DNA of 30,746 nt from a virus. The stretch is taken from positions 1 to 30,746 of the IMG/VR virus record IMGVR_UViG_3300037493_002446. One strand, written 5' to 3'. Both the position numbers and the translations under genes were made by a program. Below are positions 8,121-16,912 of the stretch, in pieces. How positions within the stretch are numbered: position 1 is the stretch's first letter; every line of letters starts with the position of its first letter. The notes under the pieces are model-generated. The model saw nothing but the letters and a program-made list of their open reading frames with translations, was not told the DNA's origin and ran no database searches.

Positions 8121-8650
8121 TATTTACTAATCAATGTAATATTGTTTGAGTAAATGTAAGTCAGTTCAAGATTTGTAATAGTTCTATTACCTTTATTCTT
8201 TCTAATGAAATCAGCATTTACAACATTTATAGGTCTTAAACCACCATCACTTGTTATTTCATACACATCATTTGATGTCCATAATTCTTCCAAGAACATA
8301 AAGTCAGGTTGATTTAAGAAACCAGTGTTAATAACATGGGTTTCAGTCATACTAACTTGGAAATCAGTTGTTCCCCTTGCGTATTGACTAACACCAGGAT
8401 TTGGACTACCCCAATCATTTTGCCAAGATTTATAGGTTTGTCTGTTGATATCTAAACCTTCAGTTTTTCCTGCTGTAAATCTGTAGTAATCATAGTGTCC
8501 ATACCTGTTTAACCACATTATCTGTAGTTGGGGGTTTCCACTCCTATTACAAATAGGTCCTACATTTATGGTGAATATTTCAGATACAGGTGTAAATCCT
8601 GAACAATTTCCAAGTGAATAAGTTGTTGGTACTGGTTGAGGTGTAATCAT
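8120..8650 (-). CDS. Tail structural protein; possible C-terminal half of a split gene
   Basis: This 176-aa protein has a 'LQIMWLNRYGHYDYYRF' core (about residues 43-60). In my recollection this Trp-Leu-Asn...Gly...Asp pattern belongs to tail proteins of Bacteroidota phages, where it sits in the C-terminal part of a longer protein. Its start overlaps the stop of the HNH gene (ATGA at 8650-8647). The N-terminus (TPQPVPTTYSLG) resembles the Pro/Thr linkers that end the neighbouring 461-aa gene. One reading is therefore that the 461-aa gene and this one were a single gene opened by the HNH gene. A separate tail-tip protein is equally possible. Confidence 0.55.
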   Translation of the reverse strand: MITPQPVPTTYSLGNCSGFTPVSEIFTINVGPICNRSGNPQLQIMWLNRYGHYDYYRFTAGKTEGLDINRQTYKSWQNDWGSPNPGVSQYARGTTDFQVSMTETHVINTGFLNQPDFMFLEELWTSNDVYEITSDGGLRPINVVNADFIRKNKGNRTITNLELTYIYSNNITLISK

Positions 8651-8988
8651 AGTTTTTTATTTTTAGTGTGTTGATTTCTCCACATTTTTTGTCTACCAAA
8701 ATCAAGAGACCTCTTAACATTTTCTTCACCGCTAACCCACTCAAGATTATAAATTGAATTATTTAATTTATTAAAATCTTTATGGTCTATCTGTGGTAAA
8801 TTATTTGGATTTGGTAAATTGCATTCAGCAACTATTCTATGAACTAAAAATGTTTTTGGTTTTTTATTTATACTTAATGAAACCTCTTGATATCCATATT
8901 TGTTAATATGTAATTTTCTTTGTTTTCCATTTCTAAAAATATTACCATTTTCATCAGCAAAATAATTGGTATCTCTAAATCTTTTCAT
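8647..8988 (-). CDS. HNH homing-type endonuclease with its own promoter
   Basis: This 113-aa protein has the layout of small phage HNH endonucleases with a NUMOD4-like N-terminus. It reads YFADENGNIFRNGK, then a beta stretch (KYGYQEVSLSINKK), then the HNH core: LVHRIVAECNLP, followed by QIDHKDFNKLNNSIYNLEWV. I placed the start at 8988 rather than the in-frame ATG at 9006. A Bacteroidota-type promoter (TTG-N19-TATATTTG) ends 4 bases upstream of 8988, and the upstream ATG would lie inside that promoter. The gene sits between two structural genes of the tail operon, as mobile homing genes often do. Confidence 0.85.
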   Translation of the reverse strand: MKRFRDTNYFADENGNIFRNGKQRKLHINKYGYQEVSLSINKKPKTFLVHRIVAECNLPNPNNLPQIDHKDFNKLNNSIYNLEWVSGEENVKRSLDFGRQKMWRNQHTKNKKL

Positions 8989-8992
8989 ACTA

Positions 8993-9022
8993 CAAATATA
9001 AAACATTTTTAGTTATCAACAA
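8993..9022 (-). promoter_or_regulatory. Bacteroidota-type promoter for the HNH gene
   Basis: On the minus strand, TTG (9022-9020; CTTG in context) is followed by 19 bases and then TATATTTG (9000-8993). Only four bases separate the -7 box from the ATG at 8988, so the transcript would be leaderless or nearly so. It is the only such promoter I found inside the tail operon. Confidence 0.6.
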
Positions 9023-10401
9023 GGTCCTGCGTAAGTTATTACTACTGCTGGGTCAGAAGCATCAAATGTTCCAACACAACCACAAAGTAGATATATTTGG
9101 TTTAATTGTAAGTCAATTGTAACGGGTGTTCCATCACAGAAGGTATAAAGTAATACTGGTGCTCCAACAAATACATTTGTTGTATCAACCTCATATTCCC
9201 CACATACACAAGGTGTTGATGATGGAGTAGGAGTAGGAGTTGGTGTTGGTTGAACACACATACTATTATATGTTATAACAAGGTTTCCTTCAAAGGTATA
9301 AGATGTTGAATTACAAAAACAAACAAGAAAACTTTCTTGTGGGTCAATTACAAGTGTCTGTTCTATGTTATTACAATCATAATAATATAACACCCCTTGT
9401 GATTCCAAAGATGCGTTAAATACATCATACGCTAAACAAGGACAAGTTTGTGGTGTTGATGAAGGAGTGGGAGTGGGTGTTGGAGTTGGTTGAACAGGTG
9501 ATGTTGTACCTGTAAAGTTTCCAAATAACTGAACTGTATATTGTGCTGTATTTGGTGGTATAATGTCTTGTAGATTTACAGGACCTGCTCCAACATATAA
9601 AGTGTTGTAGGTTGTATTACCTGTTGATAATAAACCTGTATAAGATTGATAAACATAAGAACAATCAGGTAATGGACCACCACCATTGGTTAGTACATTA
9701 TCTATTGTTACACCTGTGATTAGTATTCCTGAATCATCATAAAACTTATACTGAACATAGTAAGGTTGTGATAATGTATCATCACTCAAATACCAGTTTG
9801 TAAATGCAAGTGTGTAATATTCATCTTCTTCTAAATCACGGGTTCTTGGTGAGTTGGTTAAGAATAATCCTGATGTTGTTGGATTTGATGTTGTTGGTGT
9901 TCCTGATAATACAAATGGGTCAATATCAAAGTTCTGTTGTGTTGCTCTACCATTAACCCCCATTGTTGATTGAAATGTCTTTAATAGGGTAGATGGAACT
10001 GATGGTGGACCTTGTGTATTACCTGAACCTGTAAAACCAGTTACAGAACCTAATTCTGTTGATGAATACTCATAACCAAACTTAACTTGGTAGTTGATTG
10101 TTTCATCACTATAAGGTCTTGAAAATGGAAATGTCTGGTGTGTGTAAATATTTGTTGTGTTCCATACCGATATTGGCATATTGGAACAATAGGTTTGTAA
10201 TATTCTTGTTAAATCTATAACACCAAGTCCAAAAGGGTTTGGTGTGGCTTTACCCTGAAATACATTATTACCATTAACAAATAAATCATAGGTATATCTA
10301 AATCTATAGTTATTGGTTGTATCTGCGGATATTGTAAAAAACAACCCATTTGTTAATACAGGTTGAAATATTGGTGGTTCATTTAATATTGCTATACTCA
10401 T
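9016..10401 (-). CDS. Tail/adhesin-like structural protein with two PT linkers and two tandem Cys-rich domains
   Basis: This 461-aa protein has a beta-rich N-terminal part (residues 1-300, opening with NEPPIFQPVLTNGLFF). Two copies of a Pro-Thr linker follow ([13 protein letters not shown], near residues 305-318 and 384-397). Each linker precedes a ~65-residue domain of the form C-x-C...Y...DC...LVCFC or LLCGC...VVITY. The copies align by eye but are clearly diverged, which points to an old domain duplication. The layout suggests a virion protein displaying small binding domains on extended stalks, perhaps for attachment to the host or a surface polymer. It lies in the tail module, with the HNH gene directly downstream. 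Function is inferred only. Confidence 0.6.
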   Translation of the reverse strand: MSIAILNEPPIFQPVLTNGLFFTISADTTNNYRFRYTYDLFVNGNNVFQGKATPNPFGLGVIDLTRILQTYCSNMPISVWNTTNIYTHQTFPFSRPYSDETINYQVKFGYEYSSTELGSVTGFTGSGNTQGPPSVPSTLLKTFQSTMGVNGRATQQNFDIDPFVLSGTPTTSNPTTSGLFLTNSPRTRDLEEDEYYTLAFTNWYLSDDTLSQPYYVQYKFYDDSGILITGVTIDNVLTNGGGPLPDCSYVYQSYTGLLSTGNTTYNTLYVGAGPVNLQDIIPPNTAQYTVQLFGNFTGTTSPVQPTPTPTPTPSSTPQTCPCLAYDVFNASLESQGVLYYYDCNNIEQTLVIDPQESFLVCFCNSTSYTFEGNLVITYNSMCVQPTPTPTPTPSSTPCVCGEYEVDTTNVFVGAPVLLYTFCDGTPVTIDLQLNQIYLLCGCVGTFDASDPAVVITYAGPC

Positions 10402-11458: not shown

Positions 11459-12261
11459 TTATTTGAACTGCTTCTCCATTTTCTTCATTTCTTCATTTTG
11501 TTTTTGTACTCTTTCTTTCATAAGTGATGCTGTATTCAAACAAAGTAATAAAGGTAGTTCATCAATTTGATTTATTTTTGTAATGTCTTCTCCTGCAAGA
11601 TTGAGTGTGATACTAAAATAGTATCTAAAGGCAGCCTCTTTTTTACCCATTTTGGTAGTATCTCCCACCCCTTCACTATCTTCTGGTTGATGTTGTTCGT
11701 CCACATCAAAGAACTCTTTATATTGCTGGTATATATTGTTGCGGTTAGAAAAAAAAAAGTGCTTGCCCCAAACCAATACTTAACTGGTAGTTGTCTAAAC
11801 TCATATCCCCTATCTTCTATTTCATCTGCCTTGTATGGTTTAATCTTATACTTACCATTTTTCTTTTCAGTGATGGGTCTGTATAATATCGCCATAATCA
11901 AATGAATATTTTCTTCAATGTTTTCAGCAGAGAATACCTCCATGTCCATCCAAGCACCCCACGCAAGTTTGCTCCAATCATTTTCCAATCCATACTCAAT
12001 CCCATCATAGGTGAAAACATTATACAATTCATCTTTAAGGGATGTTTCAGTGATTTGGGACATCAGGTATGTTTGGACAAACTCCATTTGATTTAAGGGT
12101 AAATCCTTCAGTTCATTAACAGGTACTGCTAATAACATACTTAACAAATCTGCTGGTGATGATTTGTAGATGTCCTCTTTGGCTTTTAATCTTTGGAATT
12201 GTTCTATTGTGATTTCAGGTTGTACTTTTACAACCCTATCATTTAATTGTATATCTATCAT
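11459..12261 (-). CDS. Tail assembly chaperone-like protein with -1 frameshift (G/GT-type)
   Basis: Two overlapping frames form one gene. The first starts at 12261 and, read straight, gives 229 aa ending at 11572, but its last ~58 residues look like out-of-frame sequence. The second frame, ending at 11459, reads as real protein after the run of ten T (11758-11749, coding strand). A -1 shift there joins residues 1-171 (ending in FFF) to 96 more residues starting SNRNNIYQQYKEFF, giving 267 aa. The N-terminus (EITIEQFQRLKAKED) resembles tail assembly chaperones, which use exactly this kind of -1 slippage to make a short and a long product. A missing T in the assembly would look the same, because 11 T would restore one frame. 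Confidence 0.65.
11749..11758 (-). promoter_or_regulatory. Poly-U slippery site (ten T on coding strand)
   Basis: The coding strand reads CAC followed by ten T and then CTAACC. This contains U UUU UUU, a strong -1 slippery heptamer. A shift here moves translation from the chaperone N-terminal frame into the C-terminal frame. A homopolymer sequencing error is the alternative explanation. Confidence 0.55.
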
Positions 12262-13403
12262 ATTATTGTTATTTTATTTTTTGGTTTATTTATTTTCATT
12301 TGAAGCACATAACGGATTGGGTCAATACAATGGTTAAAGTCATCTATTGGTTCATCCAAGTTTTTTAAGTTCTTATCCTGTTTCCATACATATTGGTTAA
12401 GTTCATCCAACAGATTAGTTGAGGTTGATGTAACCAATAGATTATGTCTTTTAATCAAATCAATCCCATGTAATATAGTACCTTTGGCAACAGGTTTTAT
12501 ATTGATGGCATTTCTTCTCATCTCTTCTATTGCTTGGGGATTAGCGGAATCAGCAATAAAATCATCTTTTAAGTTTATATTCAAATCTTTTATCTTGTAG
12601 ATGAAATCAGGTATTGTTGTTCTTTTTAGATACAATAATTCATCAACATAAATGTTATCCTCAAACTTATACACACCAATCAGTGTTTGAGCATCGTGAT
12701 AACCATAGTCAATTCCATATCCAAGTAGTTTTGCCTCTTGTGGTATTTCACCAATGATTTGTTGGTGATTAAATACAACTCTTGTTGGAACACCCTTTTG
12801 TCCTAATCCAAATACTCTCCATAGGTTTTGGTCTCTGTATTGTAATTTTTCAATTTCCTTAACTTGAATATCAGATAGAAATGGATTGTCTTTATAAGTT
12901 ACTACTGTATAAAAAACATCTTCTTGTCCTTCCAAATCATATATCCAAGAGTTCCACAATGATGGGTTTAAGTCAATTACACATCTATCTGATGTACGCA
13001 ATATCAATTGGGTATATTCATCTTCACTAACCTCTGTTGCTTCATTTATAAACAAGTAATCTCTTTTTCTACCCCTTAACTTTGTTTCATCATCTACAGA
13101 GAACCACTCAATAATATTTGTTCCAAGTTGGAAATATCCATCAACTGAATGCCATTTATCTGATTCATATACCCCAAAGTTAATTAGTATCTCTTTTAAG
13201 TCCCTTAAGATTGAACCCTTTAATGCTGGTAATGTTTTTCTAACCAGTGATAAAGTTTTACCATCTTCTTGTAATAGTTTGTAAATCCAATAGATAAGAA
13301 TATTGTAAGTTTTAGAAGCACGAGAACTCCCTTGAAATACACAAACCCTTTTGTCTGTTTTAATCAAGTCCTCAAATACTCTTGTTGTTTGGATTTTAGG
13401 CAT
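12258..13403 (-). CDS. terL: Terminase large subunit (PBSX/Terminase_3 type)
   Basis: This 381-aa protein is the ATP-driven DNA packaging motor and nuclease. The Walker A variant GSSRASKT is at residues 25-32, Walker B (YLFINE) at 116-121, and the coupling region at 140-170. The RNase H-like nuclease domain follows, with GIDYGYHDAQT (D232), DDFIADSANP (D281/D285) and DDFNHCIDPIRY (D354/D355, D361) as likely metal ligands. The length is typical of compact PBSX-type terminases. Its start overlaps the upstream 160-aa gene by 8 bases and its stop overlaps the chaperone-like gene by 4, so it is embedded in a coupled operon. A TerS-like gene lies two genes upstream. Confidence 0.93.
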   Translation of the reverse strand: MPKIQTTRVFEDLIKTDKRVCVFQGSSRASKTYNILIYWIYKLLQEDGKTLSLVRKTLPALKGSILRDLKEILINFGVYESDKWHSVDGYFQLGTNIIEWFSVDDETKLRGRKRDYLFINEATEVSEDEYTQLILRTSDRCVIDLNPSLWNSWIYDLEGQEDVFYTVVTYKDNPFLSDIQVKEIEKLQYRDQNLWRVFGLGQKGVPTRVVFNHQQIIGEIPQEAKLLGYGIDYGYHDAQTLIGVYKFEDNIYVDELLYLKRTTIPDFIYKIKDLNINLKDDFIADSANPQAIEEMRRNAINIKPVAKGTILHGIDLIKRHNLLVTSTSTNLLDELNQYVWKQDKNLKNLDEPIDDFNHCIDPIRYVLQMKINKPKNKITII

Positions 13404-13878
13404 CTAATCTTTGTTCTAATTTACTCCTAAACTCCACTCTTGTTTTATAACAATTAAAATCTATTGGTTCTTTGAAATAGTCATTGTAGATTACACCAAT
13501 TAAATCATTAAGAACCATTGTTATTTCTTGTTTGTTAAACTTAACCCCCTTGTTTACAAACATAGTGTATTCAAAACTCACATAACCTGTCTTCTGTTCA
13601 TCAAAGGTAAATGGTATTTCTGCAACATCTATTATCATCCCATTGAAATAATGTTTATTCATATTCAGGTTGATTGTGTTCTTAATCTGTTCCAATAACT
13701 TTTCAATCTTCCTTTTTGGTTTATAGTCAGTATCTACTATAAACCAAGTCCCCATAAACAATATAACTGACTTGAAATTGACTTTATCTATTGTTTCACA
13801 TGAAACACTGATATTATCAAAGTTGTTTTTTACATTAAAGGTACAACCTTTTTTTGGTAAACTATAATTCCCTTTCAT
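13396..13878 (-). CDS. Hypothetical protein between TerS-like and TerL genes
   Basis: I do not recognise this 160-aa protein. It is mixed alpha/beta, moderately charged, and has no signal peptide, membrane segment or metal-binding pattern. It starts one base after the 88-aa TerS-like gene stops and overlaps TerL by 8 bases, so it is very likely co-translated with the packaging genes. A packaging or regulatory role is possible from position only. Confidence 0.7.
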   Translation of the reverse strand: MKGNYSLPKKGCTFNVKNNFDNISVSCETIDKVNFKSVILFMGTWFIVDTDYKPKRKIEKLLEQIKNTINLNMNKHYFNGMIIDVAEIPFTFDEQKTGYVSFEYTMFVNKGVKFNKQEITMVLNDLIGVIYNDYFKEPIDFNCYKTRVEFRSKLEQRLDA

Positions 13879-13879
13879 C

Positions 13880-14146
13880 TTAATATCCTCTCTTTTTTCC
13901 TTTTGTTTTTAGATAGAATTGAATTGCTGCCAAGTCCCCATCTTTTATTTGTTTTAGTAATTGGTTTTCCACAAAGTCCAATGATGCTTCATTGATTATT
14001 TCTACTCTGTTTTTGAACTCAATATTTTTCAACCAATTATTATATTCTATTCTATCTATATCCATCTTTTTCAACGCACTATTCACCACTCCCATACTCT
14101 TTTCAAGTGTGGATAAAAACTCTTCTTGTAAATCACTTAACATCAT
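13880..14146 (-). CDS. Terminase small subunit-like protein (phBC6A51-type helix-turn-helix)
   Basis: This 88-aa helical protein resembles the small TerS homeodomain type (phBC6A51-like). It has VNSALKKMDIDRIEYNNWLK (about residues 21-40) as a helix-turn-helix, then helices with INEASLDFVENQLLKQIKDGD and the closing AIQFYLKTKGKKRGY. The last pattern, in which the protein 'acts on many small units' and ends in a LKTKGKKRGY-like tail, is common in TerS proteins that bind the packaging site. Its start overlaps the glycosyltransferase stop by 4 bases. A second TerS-like gene lies at 16163-15702, so which one serves TerL is open; this one is closer. Confidence 0.65.
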   Translation of the reverse strand: MMLSDLQEEFLSTLEKSMGVVNSALKKMDIDRIEYNNWLKNIEFKNRVEIINEASLDFVENQLLKQIKDGDLAAIQFYLKTKGKKRGY

Positions 14147-14997
14147 TTCTTATATTTCTCATTTAATATACAAGGGACTGTATTGTTCCAACTTATATGA
14201 TGGTGTATCCTTCTATTCTTTTCACCCATTTCAGATATCCTAACAGATGATGGATTAAACATAATTGTATAAAATGATTTAATATATGTTCCATTGTCCA
14301 AATATAATTCAGTCATACCTCCCTTGTTCTTTTGTGTTGTCTGTTGTGCAATCTTAACATTTGGAATTGTAAAAAACAAATCACCCCTACTACCTAAACT
14401 GGTGTAGGTATTAACATCTTCATTTATTCTACCAACAAACTTAAATGGTTTGAGTGTATCACAGAAAAATGTATTCATACACTTTCTCATTAGATGTAAT
14501 GAGTTCTTGAATCTACCTTTATCTCCACCCAAGAAATCACCACCTTGAGCCATTGCTATTGTAAGTGCTGGTATTGTCTTGTAGTACTCTAAGAACGCAT
14601 CAAACACCCTATCAAGTTGTTTTATGTATCTTTCCTTCTGTATCAAGTTATTATCAAACTTATAACTGAATGCTGAATAATCATCATCAAGTTGAATAAA
14701 GTATCTTATACCCAATTCTTTTGCAATCTCAAATGATGCGTTCCTTGCATAGACAATACTCCTTGTATCTGTAAAATTATCTGCTTGGTCAAATTTATGT
14801 CTAATCTCATTTTTTGAGAATACCTTAACTTGTTCCCCAAACTTTTTTTTGTAGTCATTTAAGGTTGTGTCTTCATCATCTACCAACAAATAGATAGGTC
14901 CTGTATAACCCATCTTTTTCAAACTATGATAAGTTTTAACATTATCAGGTCTACCATGCGTTAAGATAAATGCTGCAAAGTTTGTATTATTCATCAT
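14143..14997 (-). CDS. TET-associated-type glycosyltransferase (putative DNA base glycosyltransferase)
   Basis: This 284-aa protein is a nucleotide-sugar glycosyltransferase (GT-A-like). From the chosen start, the N-terminus reads AAFILTHGRPDNVKTYHSL (residues 8-26), followed by IYLLVDDEDTT. Next come IVYARNASFEIAKELGIRYF and the metal-binding LDDDY (DDD at 104-106). The C-terminus has MFNPSSVRISEMG and RIHHHISWNNTVP. This set matches, in my recognition, the TET-associated glycosyltransferase (TAGT) group described in phages, which is thought to add sugars to modified DNA bases. I chose 14997 rather than an in-frame ATG at 15018, because it overlaps the ParB-like gene by only 11 bases. No TET/JBP dioxygenase was found in the window. 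The substrate is unknown. Confidence 0.75.
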   Translation of the reverse strand: MMNNTNFAAFILTHGRPDNVKTYHSLKKMGYTGPIYLLVDDEDTTLNDYKKKFGEQVKVFSKNEIRHKFDQADNFTDTRSIVYARNASFEIAKELGIRYFIQLDDDYSAFSYKFDNNLIQKERYIKQLDRVFDAFLEYYKTIPALTIAMAQGGDFLGGDKGRFKNSLHLMRKCMNTFFCDTLKPFKFVGRINEDVNTYTSLGSRGDLFFTIPNVKIAQQTTQKNKGGMTELYLDNGTYIKSFYTIMFNPSSVRISEMGEKNRRIHHHISWNNTVPCILNEKYKK

Positions 14998-15718
14998 GGT
15001 CTTCACTATACAAATCACTCAAGGTTTTGGATAATCTAACATAACCTTCTTCAATCGCTTTATTATAATCAATAATAACCAAGGCTGATTTCTCCATCAA
15101 ATCTTGCATCTCTTTATTTGAGTGTGAATAAAAATCAGCAATCTTTGAATAGTCAAATACAATATGTCTACAACTTGCCAGTCTTAAGAACTCTTTTTCC
15201 TCATCAGTAATGTTTGAGTTTTCAATATTATCTATGAGCGTATTGTATTTGGTTGTATCTACTAAATTCTTAATATTTGGTTTTACATTAACTGGTTCAT
15301 AAGTTGGTGCCAAAATCTTTCTTGTGTATTTTTCATCTTCTGTTTCCTCATCAACCAACAATACATCTAAACCCCAATCCTCCAATAAGTCCATATCAAA
15401 TTCAGTTTCCATAATATCCCAATCCCACTCACCAAAAGAAACATTATCTTTAATGATAAATTCTTTCTTCTGTTGTTCTGTTAAATCCTCTGCCATAATA
15501 ACAGGTACTGATTCCATCTTTAAGTCAATACAAGCCTTTAATCTCATATTACCACCCAACACCACATAGTTCTCATCTACAACTATTGGTCTTAATTCCA
15601 ACATTTCAGGAAACTCCAATAATGACTTTTTTAATTGAGTGATTTTTTTATCATCAATCTTTCTTGGGTTTATTGGATTAAATGTTAACTCATCAATACT
15701 CTTATACTGTATTCTCAT
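14987..15718 (-). CDS. ParB-like nuclease-domain protein
   Basis: This 243-aa protein has a ParB/Srx N-terminal domain: LTFNPINPRK (residues 11-20), RPIVVDENYVVLGGNMRLKA (43-62, including the GGNMRLKA core) and VPVIMAEDLT. An acidic stretch (residues 92-135, EWDWD...DEETEDEKYTRK) follows, then a C-terminal helical part with ASCRHIVFDYSKIADFY. Phage proteins of this design often accompany DNA-modification enzymes or the terminase. Here it sits between a TerS-like gene and the glycosyltransferase, which it overlaps. It may bring the modification or packaging enzymes to DNA. It is not a partition protein in the plasmid sense, since no ParA is present. Confidence 0.82.
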   Translation of the reverse strand: MRIQYKSIDELTFNPINPRKIDDKKITQLKKSLLEFPEMLELRPIVVDENYVVLGGNMRLKACIDLKMESVPVIMAEDLTEQQKKEFIIKDNVSFGEWDWDIMETEFDMDLLEDWGLDVLLVDEETEDEKYTRKILAPTYEPVNVKPNIKNLVDTTKYNTLIDNIENSNITDEEKEFLRLASCRHIVFDYSKIADFYSHSNKEMQDLMEKSALVIIDYNKAIEEGYVRLSKTLSDLYSEDHDE

Positions 15719-16163
15719 CTTGTCCCATTTGTGTTCTTATAATCTCAATTTGTAGTGGACTGGTTGAATTATCTATCTTCTCCCCTTGTGTGGTTACATC
15801 AATATGTTTTTCACTCTTCCAGTTGTTCTTAAACTTGTTGGTCATAATAACCTGCCATAACCTTGTATTAAACCCTGCTCCATTGTTCTCACTCATAGAT
15901 TCATATGCTCTATTGAACCACCACTCTTCACATAACTTTTGATACTGGTTGAACGCTTCGGAATATTTCCTATTTGTCTTTAATAATCTGTAATGTCCAT
16001 CCCAACTTATTCCCAATTCAATCAAGAATTGTGTTATGTGTTTTCCTTGAATACCAGCCTCAATGATAATCTTGTACCACTCTGGGTTCATTGTTTCTTC
16101 AAGTCTGGGTCTACCTTTACCTCTCTTTGGAGTGTTATCTTCTCCTTGTATATTTTGTTCCAT
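15702..16163 (-). CDS. TerS-like DNA-binding protein
   Basis: This 153-aa protein begins with a disordered basic segment (TPKRGKGRPRLEE), then a helical region (PEWYKIIIEAGIQGKHITQFLIELGIS) that reads as a helix-turn-helix. It ends with the conserved-looking RLWQVIMTNKFKNNWKSEKHIDVTTQGEKI. That ending ('kdvtt.Ge') is typical of phage small terminase proteins and other packaging-site binders. It overlaps the ParB-like gene by 17 bases. It could be the real TerS, with the 88-aa protein an accessory, or the reverse. Confidence 0.6.
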   Translation of the reverse strand: MEQNIQGEDNTPKRGKGRPRLEETMNPEWYKIIIEAGIQGKHITQFLIELGISWDGHYRLLKTNRKYSEAFNQYQKLCEEWWFNRAYESMSENNGAGFNTRLWQVIMTNKFKNNWKSEKHIDVTTQGEKIDNSTSPLQIEIIRTQMGQDENTV

Positions 16164-16398
16164 ATATTTCTATTCCTATTTTAATTTGATTTATTGCATC
16201 TTCCACTGTTGGTTTGATACTTGAAGATGGATACAGAGCGTAGTAAGTGTCCATAATTTCAATCTTATCCAAGTCAGTGAGGTCTTCTATTGTTTTTACA
16301 TTTATAATTGATTCTACAACCTGTTTAGCGTTCTGAATATTATCAGGACTGTCTAAATTGTTGTGAACAACTTTCCTACCTGATTTACAATTACACAA
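16135..16398 (-). CDS. Hypothetical protein, probable TTG start after an HNH gene
   Basis: I do not recognise this 87-aa protein ([12 protein letters not shown]..., later [17 protein letters not shown] and [11 protein letters not shown]). The reading frame stays open upstream to an ATG at 16494, but that stretch is the out-of-frame end of the HNH gene. I therefore placed the start at the TTG at 16398, six bases after a strong purine run (GGGGGAGG). The start overlaps the HNH stop by 8 bases. The gene may originally have had an ATG that was replaced when the HNH gene entered. Confidence 0.5.
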
Positions 16399-16912
16399 GA
16401 TTATCCTCCCCCTTTCTAACCCTTCTGTTTTTTGCTTGTTCTTTAGATGTTGACCAACGACAATTATTGGGTTCATAATTACCATTATTATCAATCCTAT
16501 CTAAAGTATAATCTATATTTTTTCTATATCCCATATCATTTATAAAGTTATCAAATGAGTTTATCCACTCATCACAGATTTTAATTCCCCTACCACCATA
16601 GTTTTTGTATGCATCGTGATTAGGATTAAGACATCTTGATTTCATTGCTCTCCAAGAAACATATTCAGGACTTTTCCACAATCCATGTGTTCTATGAGCA
16701 TCACCAATTAAAGTGTTTTTCATACAACCACAACTTTTAGTTGAAATAAAGTTTGGTAATGTTATTTGTTTTATATTTCCACAAACACACTCACAATTAA
16801 ACTTTCTCACTTTTTGATTTGATGCTGGATTTATGTATGGTTCTATTTCACCAAGTATTGTAAAATAATTAAAAACCTCACCAACATTTATTTCTCTTTT
16901 TTTATTCCCCAT
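16391..16912 (-). CDS. HNH endonuclease with N-terminal zinc-finger-like region
   Basis: This 173-aa protein has a Cys-rich N-terminal part (residues 40-58 CECVCGN, then SCGC near 75-78). A phage HNH-type domain follows: [22 protein letters not shown], then [18 protein letters not shown] and [17 protein letters not shown], ending in EQAKNRR. These are the usual landmarks of small homing-type HNH nucleases in phages. It overlaps the 85-aa gene upstream by 11 bases and the 87-aa gene downstream by 8. Unlike the HNH at 8988-8647, it has no clear promoter of its own. Confidence 0.85.

Follow-up and report, generated by a model that had tools for sequence, protein, structure and literature searches.

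What does a phage glycosyltransferase of a family named for its TET/JBP dioxygenase neighbors act on in a virus that encodes no such dioxygenase, and why does its gene lie between a gene for a ParB-like protein and the terminase genes? The question is raised by a 30,746-nucleotide (nt) stretch of viral DNA, positions 1 to 30,746 of the IMG/VR record IMGVR_UViG_3300037493_002446, the whole of which we refer to as the window. On its minus strand, a TET-associated glycosyltransferase (TAGT) gene at 14143-14997 overlaps by 11 nt the end of the ParB-like gene at 14987-15718; the TAGT frame starts with an ATG at 14997, and a GTG at 15018 is also open. We find that the coupling of this type of TAGT with a ParB-like adaptor is real, recurrent and apparently undescribed, and that the enzyme has the ParB-like protein, and in particular the C-terminal domain (CTD; 14987-15328, minus strand) of that protein, as its partner. 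The best reading of these data, which we hold to be probable though far from secure, is that the adaptor, consisting of a ParB_N domain and the CTD, guides the glycosylation of phage DNA as a means of counter-defense.

The assignment of the enzyme to the TAGT type, made in an initial annotation of the window from the sequence, was borne out by profile searches and by structure prediction. The protein matched Pfam family PF20691 with 124.6 bits against a cut-off of 27.5 (E 6.7e-36) and phrog_842 with an E value of 4.7e-77, and its AlphaFold2 model (mean pLDDT 91.5, pTM 0.90) has a GT-A fold with the DxD-type motif LDDDY, of which residues D104-D106 are conserved in the TAGT alignment. Seven residues (R16, Y49, D105, D194, G227, K240 and P249) were invariant among 72 sequences, including those of locus L010 and of the TET-type TAGT of locus L171. 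In Foldseek searches the best two viral TAGTs aligned to the model with TM scores of 0.86-0.87, and the matches in the PDB were GT-A enzymes (E ~1e-5, TM ~0.4-0.5); a sequence search of solved structures gave no meaningful match. The Tet_JBP profile (PF12851) was silent in the window and positive in the control, the Nonlabens phage P12024L, so that the lack of a TET/JBP dioxygenase noticed in the initial annotation also stands. The association that gave the family its name is thus missing; since the family is defined by sequence, the membership of the window enzyme stands despite this. The family was reportedly defined by Iyer et al. in 2013.

The partner protein comprises a ParB_N domain (approximately residues 1-118) followed by a helical CTD (approximately residues 131-243). 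It matches phrog_620 with an E value of 1.4e-38, and its PF02195 match (2.8e-5) is just below the cut-off in the window and above threshold in relatives. In the AlphaFold2 model (pLDDT 88.0, pTM 0.59, so that the domain arrangement is uncertain), the N-domain resembles the Noc/ParB CTPase structures 7ol9, 7bnr and 6sdk (E ~1e-5, 24% identity) and, like these proteins, has GxxR-type and DN motifs. According to both model and sequence, the distinct helical CTD stands where ParB and Noc have their DNA-binding and dimerization domains, and no Foldseek match was seen that the CTD would account for. This domain comprises about 110 residues with the conserved core RHxVFNYxKIADYYAHAxxEMQxLMExSALVIID. 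ParB_N was the sole Pfam match of the window protein, which carries no methyltransferase domain, and no ParA or partition context was noted among the window genes, where no search aimed at ParA or parS was made.

The pair is found far beyond the window. Overlapping ParB-like and TAGT genes lie upstream of the terminase genes in a lambda-like Escherichia phage, Lactobacillus gasseri phage jlb1 and Porphyromonas phage 005a, the same pair precedes the terminase genes of Lactobacillus phage c5 and Nocardia phage NTR1, and in Haloarcula virus HHTV-2 it is located about 3 kb upstream of the gene for the terminase large subunit (TerL). IMG/VR scans seeded with the TAGT and with the ParB-like protein returned 155 loci, nearly all of them with both genes. 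A further 63 loci with the same partner came from a scan seeded with the Porphyromonas TAGT, a distant relative (27% identity to the window enzyme); the single CTD, a TET-type TAGT and the Nocardia TAGT, each used as seed, yielded between zero and three loci. The overlap between the two genes was mostly 4-59 nt. In bacterial genomes the module was found in apparent prophages of Bacteroidota, Bacillota, Verrucomicrobiota/Kiritimatiellae, Cloacimonadota and enterobacteria, with the CTD detected in 24 of these 25 loci. Among the phage-set TAGT loci with enough upstream sequence, the CTD was lacking only in L010, whose TAGT is of the type shared with T4-like phages, and in L173, a relative of the P12024L TET-type TAGT. 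In an even draw of ~1200 genomes from three phyla TAGTs were rare; the clear new find (L293) was a divergent TAGT; its gene overlaps that of a ParB_N protein with a different tail, and a gene for a protein like the terminase small subunit (TerS) comes next. Weak CTD matches in six Bacteroidota genomes (E ~1e-4) were set aside as chance, the two inspected being a peptidase and a PurH-like enzyme, and a plasmid search gave no match. The linkage of the TAGT to ParB and terminase, first noticed in the window, is real and widespread. The literature searched, which did not extend to Iyer et al. 2013, contained no report of ParB neighbors of TAGTs.

Which part of the adaptor matters to the enzyme is indicated by phages in which the adaptor is divided or reduced. 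Within this TAGT clade the CTD is the partner that stays constant, and in some phages it is a gene of its own: in Vibrio jumbo phages it stands alone before the TAGT gene (55.7% identical to the window CTD), further CTD-only versions are found in L034 (two tandem CTD-TAGT pairs), L247, L249, L252 and L256, and in L251 ParB_N and the CTD are encoded by separate open reading frames (ORFs). On the TAGT tree, which was built quickly and has long branches, the CTD-only state turns up at scattered places. In one locus from a bacterial genome (L263) ParB_N was present and the CTD was not detected, and the divergent TAGTs of L029 and L293 are also paired with ParB_N; the gene upstream of the TAGT in L285 appeared ParB-like by eye, gave no profile match and was not counted. 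The L029 phage has a standard ParB-TAGT pair, and its divergent TAGT is overlapped by a second ParB_N gene (L029:3260-4610). No natural ParB-TAGT fusion protein was found. Because the pairing is near-obligatory, the genes overlap, and the CTD is retained where ParB_N is repeatedly absent, we infer that the CTD binds the TAGT, and the two very probably form a complex.

The position of the pair beside the terminase genes had led to the proposal that modification and packaging are coupled, in which case the pair would mark the pac/cos region or newly packaged DNA. This is supported by the next long gene downstream, which encodes a terminase protein in ~80 of 91 nonredundant loci and belongs to several TerL families, and by phage c5, in which 90 nt separate the start of the ParB-like gene from the annotated cos site. 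A comparison of isolated Lactobacillus delbrueckii phages with TerL DNA 94.6-98.1% identical to that of c5 nevertheless weakens the proposal. The pair is intact in c5, whereas the TAGT gene is split by a frameshift in phiLdb, the ParB part is gone in LL-Ku (deletion 193 to 1039, c5 coordinates) and lost in Ld17, most of both genes is gone in Ld25A (361 to 1561, c5 coordinates), and essentially the whole pair is gone in Ld3 (154 to 1777, c5 coordinates). Ld3 and Ld25A still retain the cos-proximal end and a TerL with 94.9-98.1% identity to the c5 one. Since the pair is broken or deleted in isolated phages with near-identical TerL, it is dispensable with this terminase and not a requirement for packaging, and its repeated lesions fit the expectation for an accessory counter-defense gene. 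In Ld17, the N-terminus of the TAGT (L012:75-833) is unlike that of c5, as if it had recombined with another TAGT after the ParB loss.

The CTD-only modules likewise speak against coupling to packaging. ParB_N-bearing modules adjoin the terminase, whereas CTD-only modules are often found in replication regions away from it: between DNA polymerase I and a clamp-like protein in L249, after a primase-helicase in L247, and after a DnaB-like helicase in L034. Furthermore, the terminase-side location is shared with another type of enzyme. A single profile detects ParB_N also in phage ParB_N-methyltransferase fusions (E 1e-40 to 1e-47), which were located at terminase genes in all three phages checked. 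With these findings against it, we consider a mechanistic link between modification and packaging to be improbable. Since ParB_N-methyltransferases also adjoin the terminase, this location is consistent with a general slot that takes up accessory genes for DNA modification. In L014, an N6/N4 DNA methyltransferase with a NUMOD1 domain (L014:7172-8179) lies between TerS and TerL, the exact place that in the window is occupied by a 160-aa ORF (13396-13878, minus strand). This ORF had been suggested to encode an unrecognized partner of the TAGT, an idea that is undermined by the methyltransferase in its place in L014 and by the lack of a homologue in any other locus fetched; it matched no family above cut-off. 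The terminase and replication contexts both concern DNA transactions, and DNA is therefore the likely acceptor, in line with the T6 TAGT (T2/T6 beta-glucosyl-HMC-alpha-glucosyltransferase), which adds a second glucose to glucosyl-5-hydroxymethylcytosine (glucosyl-hmC) (PMC13216743; PMC13390438).

Taken in this way, the TAGT would be the catalyst, a GT-A transferase moving a sugar from a nucleotide-sugar donor, and the ParB-like protein would be its dedicated partner, bound to it through the helical CTD. The ParB_N domain, with a fold of nucleoside triphosphate (NTP)-binding DNA clamps and nucleases, would keep the complex on phage DNA, presumably as it does for the methyltransferases fused to related ParB_N domains. 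ParB_N may be an NTP-regulated clamp, or it may nick DNA, an activity reported for Bce_0392, the ParB-methylase of B. cereus (PMC5512222). Phage DNA would be glycosylated late in infection or during replication, and the sugars would shield it from host nucleases; such a counter-defense role seems to us a reasonably good expectation.

Several points weigh against adaptor-guided DNA glycosylation. The loci were mostly picked by similarity ranking, so that the near-universal pairing holds for this clade, and ParB_N could be a nickase or an NTPase instead of a clamp (PMC5512222). The literature searched held no mass-spectrometry or restriction data on these phages. Other points concern the acceptor. 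The window encodes no Tet_JBP, thymidylate-synthase/hydroxymethylase or other base-hydroxylating family, and Tet_JBP was found in none of 69 module records, while the profile matched both P12024L records used as positive control; the search covered 70 records besides P12024L, including the non-module L010, several of them incomplete, which makes this a strong but not an absolute negative. The thymidylate-synthase family was detected only in Vibrio phage pv27 among 46 records searched. The pv27 gene was considered as a hydroxymethylase that would make the acceptor and was rejected, as it keeps the VPFN motif with the thymidylate-synthase Asn and lies beside a dihydrofolate reductase gene; it is probably an ordinary thymidylate synthase. 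By these searches the module does not belong to the TET-TAGT hypermodification systems, and a TAGT acting on unmodified DNA bases would represent a chemistry new to this family.

The same lack of an acceptor-forming family in the module records, apart from the probable ordinary thymidylate synthase of pv27, would be explained if the host or another phage provided a modified base for the TAGT to act on and the ParB-like protein did no more than tether the enzyme. Against this, the module spans viruses of Bacteroidota, Bacillota, enterobacteria, actinobacteria and haloarchaea, and no hydroxylated base is known to us that hosts of this range would share; a supplied base therefore appears to us a poor candidate. 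The absence of a base-hydroxylating enzyme could also mean that the TAGT glycosylates a protein (the terminase, a capsid or tail protein, or a host factor), with the ParB-like protein as regulator or co-substrate. The best solved-structure matches of the TAGT model indeed include protein and ribosomally synthesized and post-translationally modified peptide (RiPP) glycosyltransferases, no solved structure fits the model better than protein-glycosylating GT-A enzymes, and a radical SAM gene adjoins the TAGT in some loci (present in cassettes L034, L163, L260 and L266). Nevertheless, the neighbors of the pair are DNA-transaction genes in two different contexts, its ParB_N is of the methyltransferase-associated type, and the TAGTs with an assigned function act on DNA. 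A protein substrate is thus unlikely in our judgment. A more far-reaching version of DNA glycosylation, which we offer as a tentative and rather doubtful suggestion, is that ParB_N/CTD-TAGT is self-sufficient, attaching a sugar to a base that has not first been hydroxylated (for instance to an exocyclic amine or a ring atom), with NTP-dependent clamp loading and with cassette enzymes tailoring the donor or the sugar.

Genes that may serve such tailoring accompany the pair in some relatives. In L163 a sugar-nucleotide short-chain dehydrogenase/reductase (SDR) and a UDP-glucose dehydrogenase directly follow the TAGT (L163:8157-10324), which suggests a phage-encoded pentose or uronate donor route, and the L239 cassette also contains an SDR. 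In ten loci a fusion of a His-phosphatase with a TagD-like nucleotidyltransferase, possibly a dedicated donor-synthesis enzyme, is encoded between the ParB-like gene and the TAGT (for example L120:7743-8702, L151:1419-2387 and L160:867-1814). The TAGT of L260 (L260:5443-6846) has an extra N-terminal P-loop-kinase-like domain (GPSCSGKST; recognized by eye, no Pfam match) and is followed by the radical SAM gene of that cassette. L256 has a methyltransferase-like gene between the CTD and the TAGT, and two or three tandem TAGTs are found in L248, L258, L261 and L266. The window has none of these genes, and its phage therefore likely draws on a host nucleotide sugar.

Within the window, the order of the cassette was found as initially annotated, with all genes on the minus strand: a TerS-like gene (15702-16163), the ParB-like gene, the TAGT gene, a TerS gene (13880-14146), the 160-aa ORF and TerL (12258-13403; PF04466 4.3e-19, PF17288 1.4e-8), with successive overlaps of 17, 11 and 4 nt, a 1-nt gap and an 8-nt overlap. 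Of the two genes that had been called TerS-like, the 88-aa gene at 13880-14146 is of the conserved type, with 59 homologues at the TerS position of relatives, and a weak match to phrog_24579 (4.1e-5). The call is less certain for the gene at 15702-16163, which lies upstream of the ParB-like gene and outside the conserved module, matches phrog_309 weakly (E 0.0014) and has a single good homologue, in L014 (58% identity). This nearest relative is more similar to the window in its TAGT (81% identity) than in TerS (69%), TerL (56%) or portal (49%). The ParB-like and TAGT genes are under purifying selection in this comparison, with ratios of nonsynonymous to synonymous substitution (dN/dS, NG86) of ~0.10, with dS near saturation, and ~0.12, respectively. 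Two HNH endonuclease genes are present, one just upstream of the cassette (16391-16912) and one among the structural genes (8647-9006). The 461-aa protein encoded at 9016-10401 has repeated 13-residue linkers that separate cysteine-bearing repeats. The contig ends (1-1181 and 29518-30746) are 82% identical DNA and encode paralogous proteins with a Peptidase_S78_2 domain; this may reflect a tandem paralogue that straddles a circular junction, or an artefact at the contig ends.

How does this module relate to known systems? With the T2/T6 type of TAGT it shares the Pfam family, the GT-A fold and the invariant residues; it differs in lacking TET/JBP, in having the ParB_N/CTD partner and in enzyme length (284 aa in the window versus 387 aa for the L010 type). 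The TET-TAGT-methyltransferase operon of P12024L is likewise a phage operon that combines a TAGT with DNA-modification genes, but it contains Tet_JBP (E 2.8e-29) and no ParB neighbor, the reverse of the window, and its TAGT reaches an E value of only 2e-4 with the window-type profile. The ParB_N-DNA methyltransferase fusions (phrog_498; compare Bce_0392, PMC5512222) are similar in their related ParB_N, their DNA-modifying enzyme and their terminase-side location; in these the methyltransferase is part of one polypeptide, whereas the window has the CTD and the TAGT encoded in two overlapping genes. A functional analogy for tethering is provided by T4 alpha-glucosyltransferase, a DNA glucosyltransferase that binds the gp45 sliding clamp, although this enzyme is unrelated, has a GT-B fold and acts on hmC made at the nucleotide level, and the clamp interaction is not the main cause of the dominance of alpha-glucosylation in T4 (PMC13216743).

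A 2026 study (PMC13216743) reports that 288 of 753 phage genomes contain solitary TAGT homologues of no known function, without either of the T4-type DNA glucosyltransferases. The module described here provides a partner and a context for at least one large clade of these: a ParB-like adaptor, a constant CTD and a terminase-side slot shared with the ParB_N-methyltransferases. The question of what a TAGT targets without TET or hydroxymethylase thereby becomes one of comparing natural isolates, and the two-gene set is one that a laboratory strain could express. Should the substrate be DNA, sugars would be added to phage genomes by a widespread route that has been overlooked under the annotations 'ParB partition protein' and 'hypothetical protein'.

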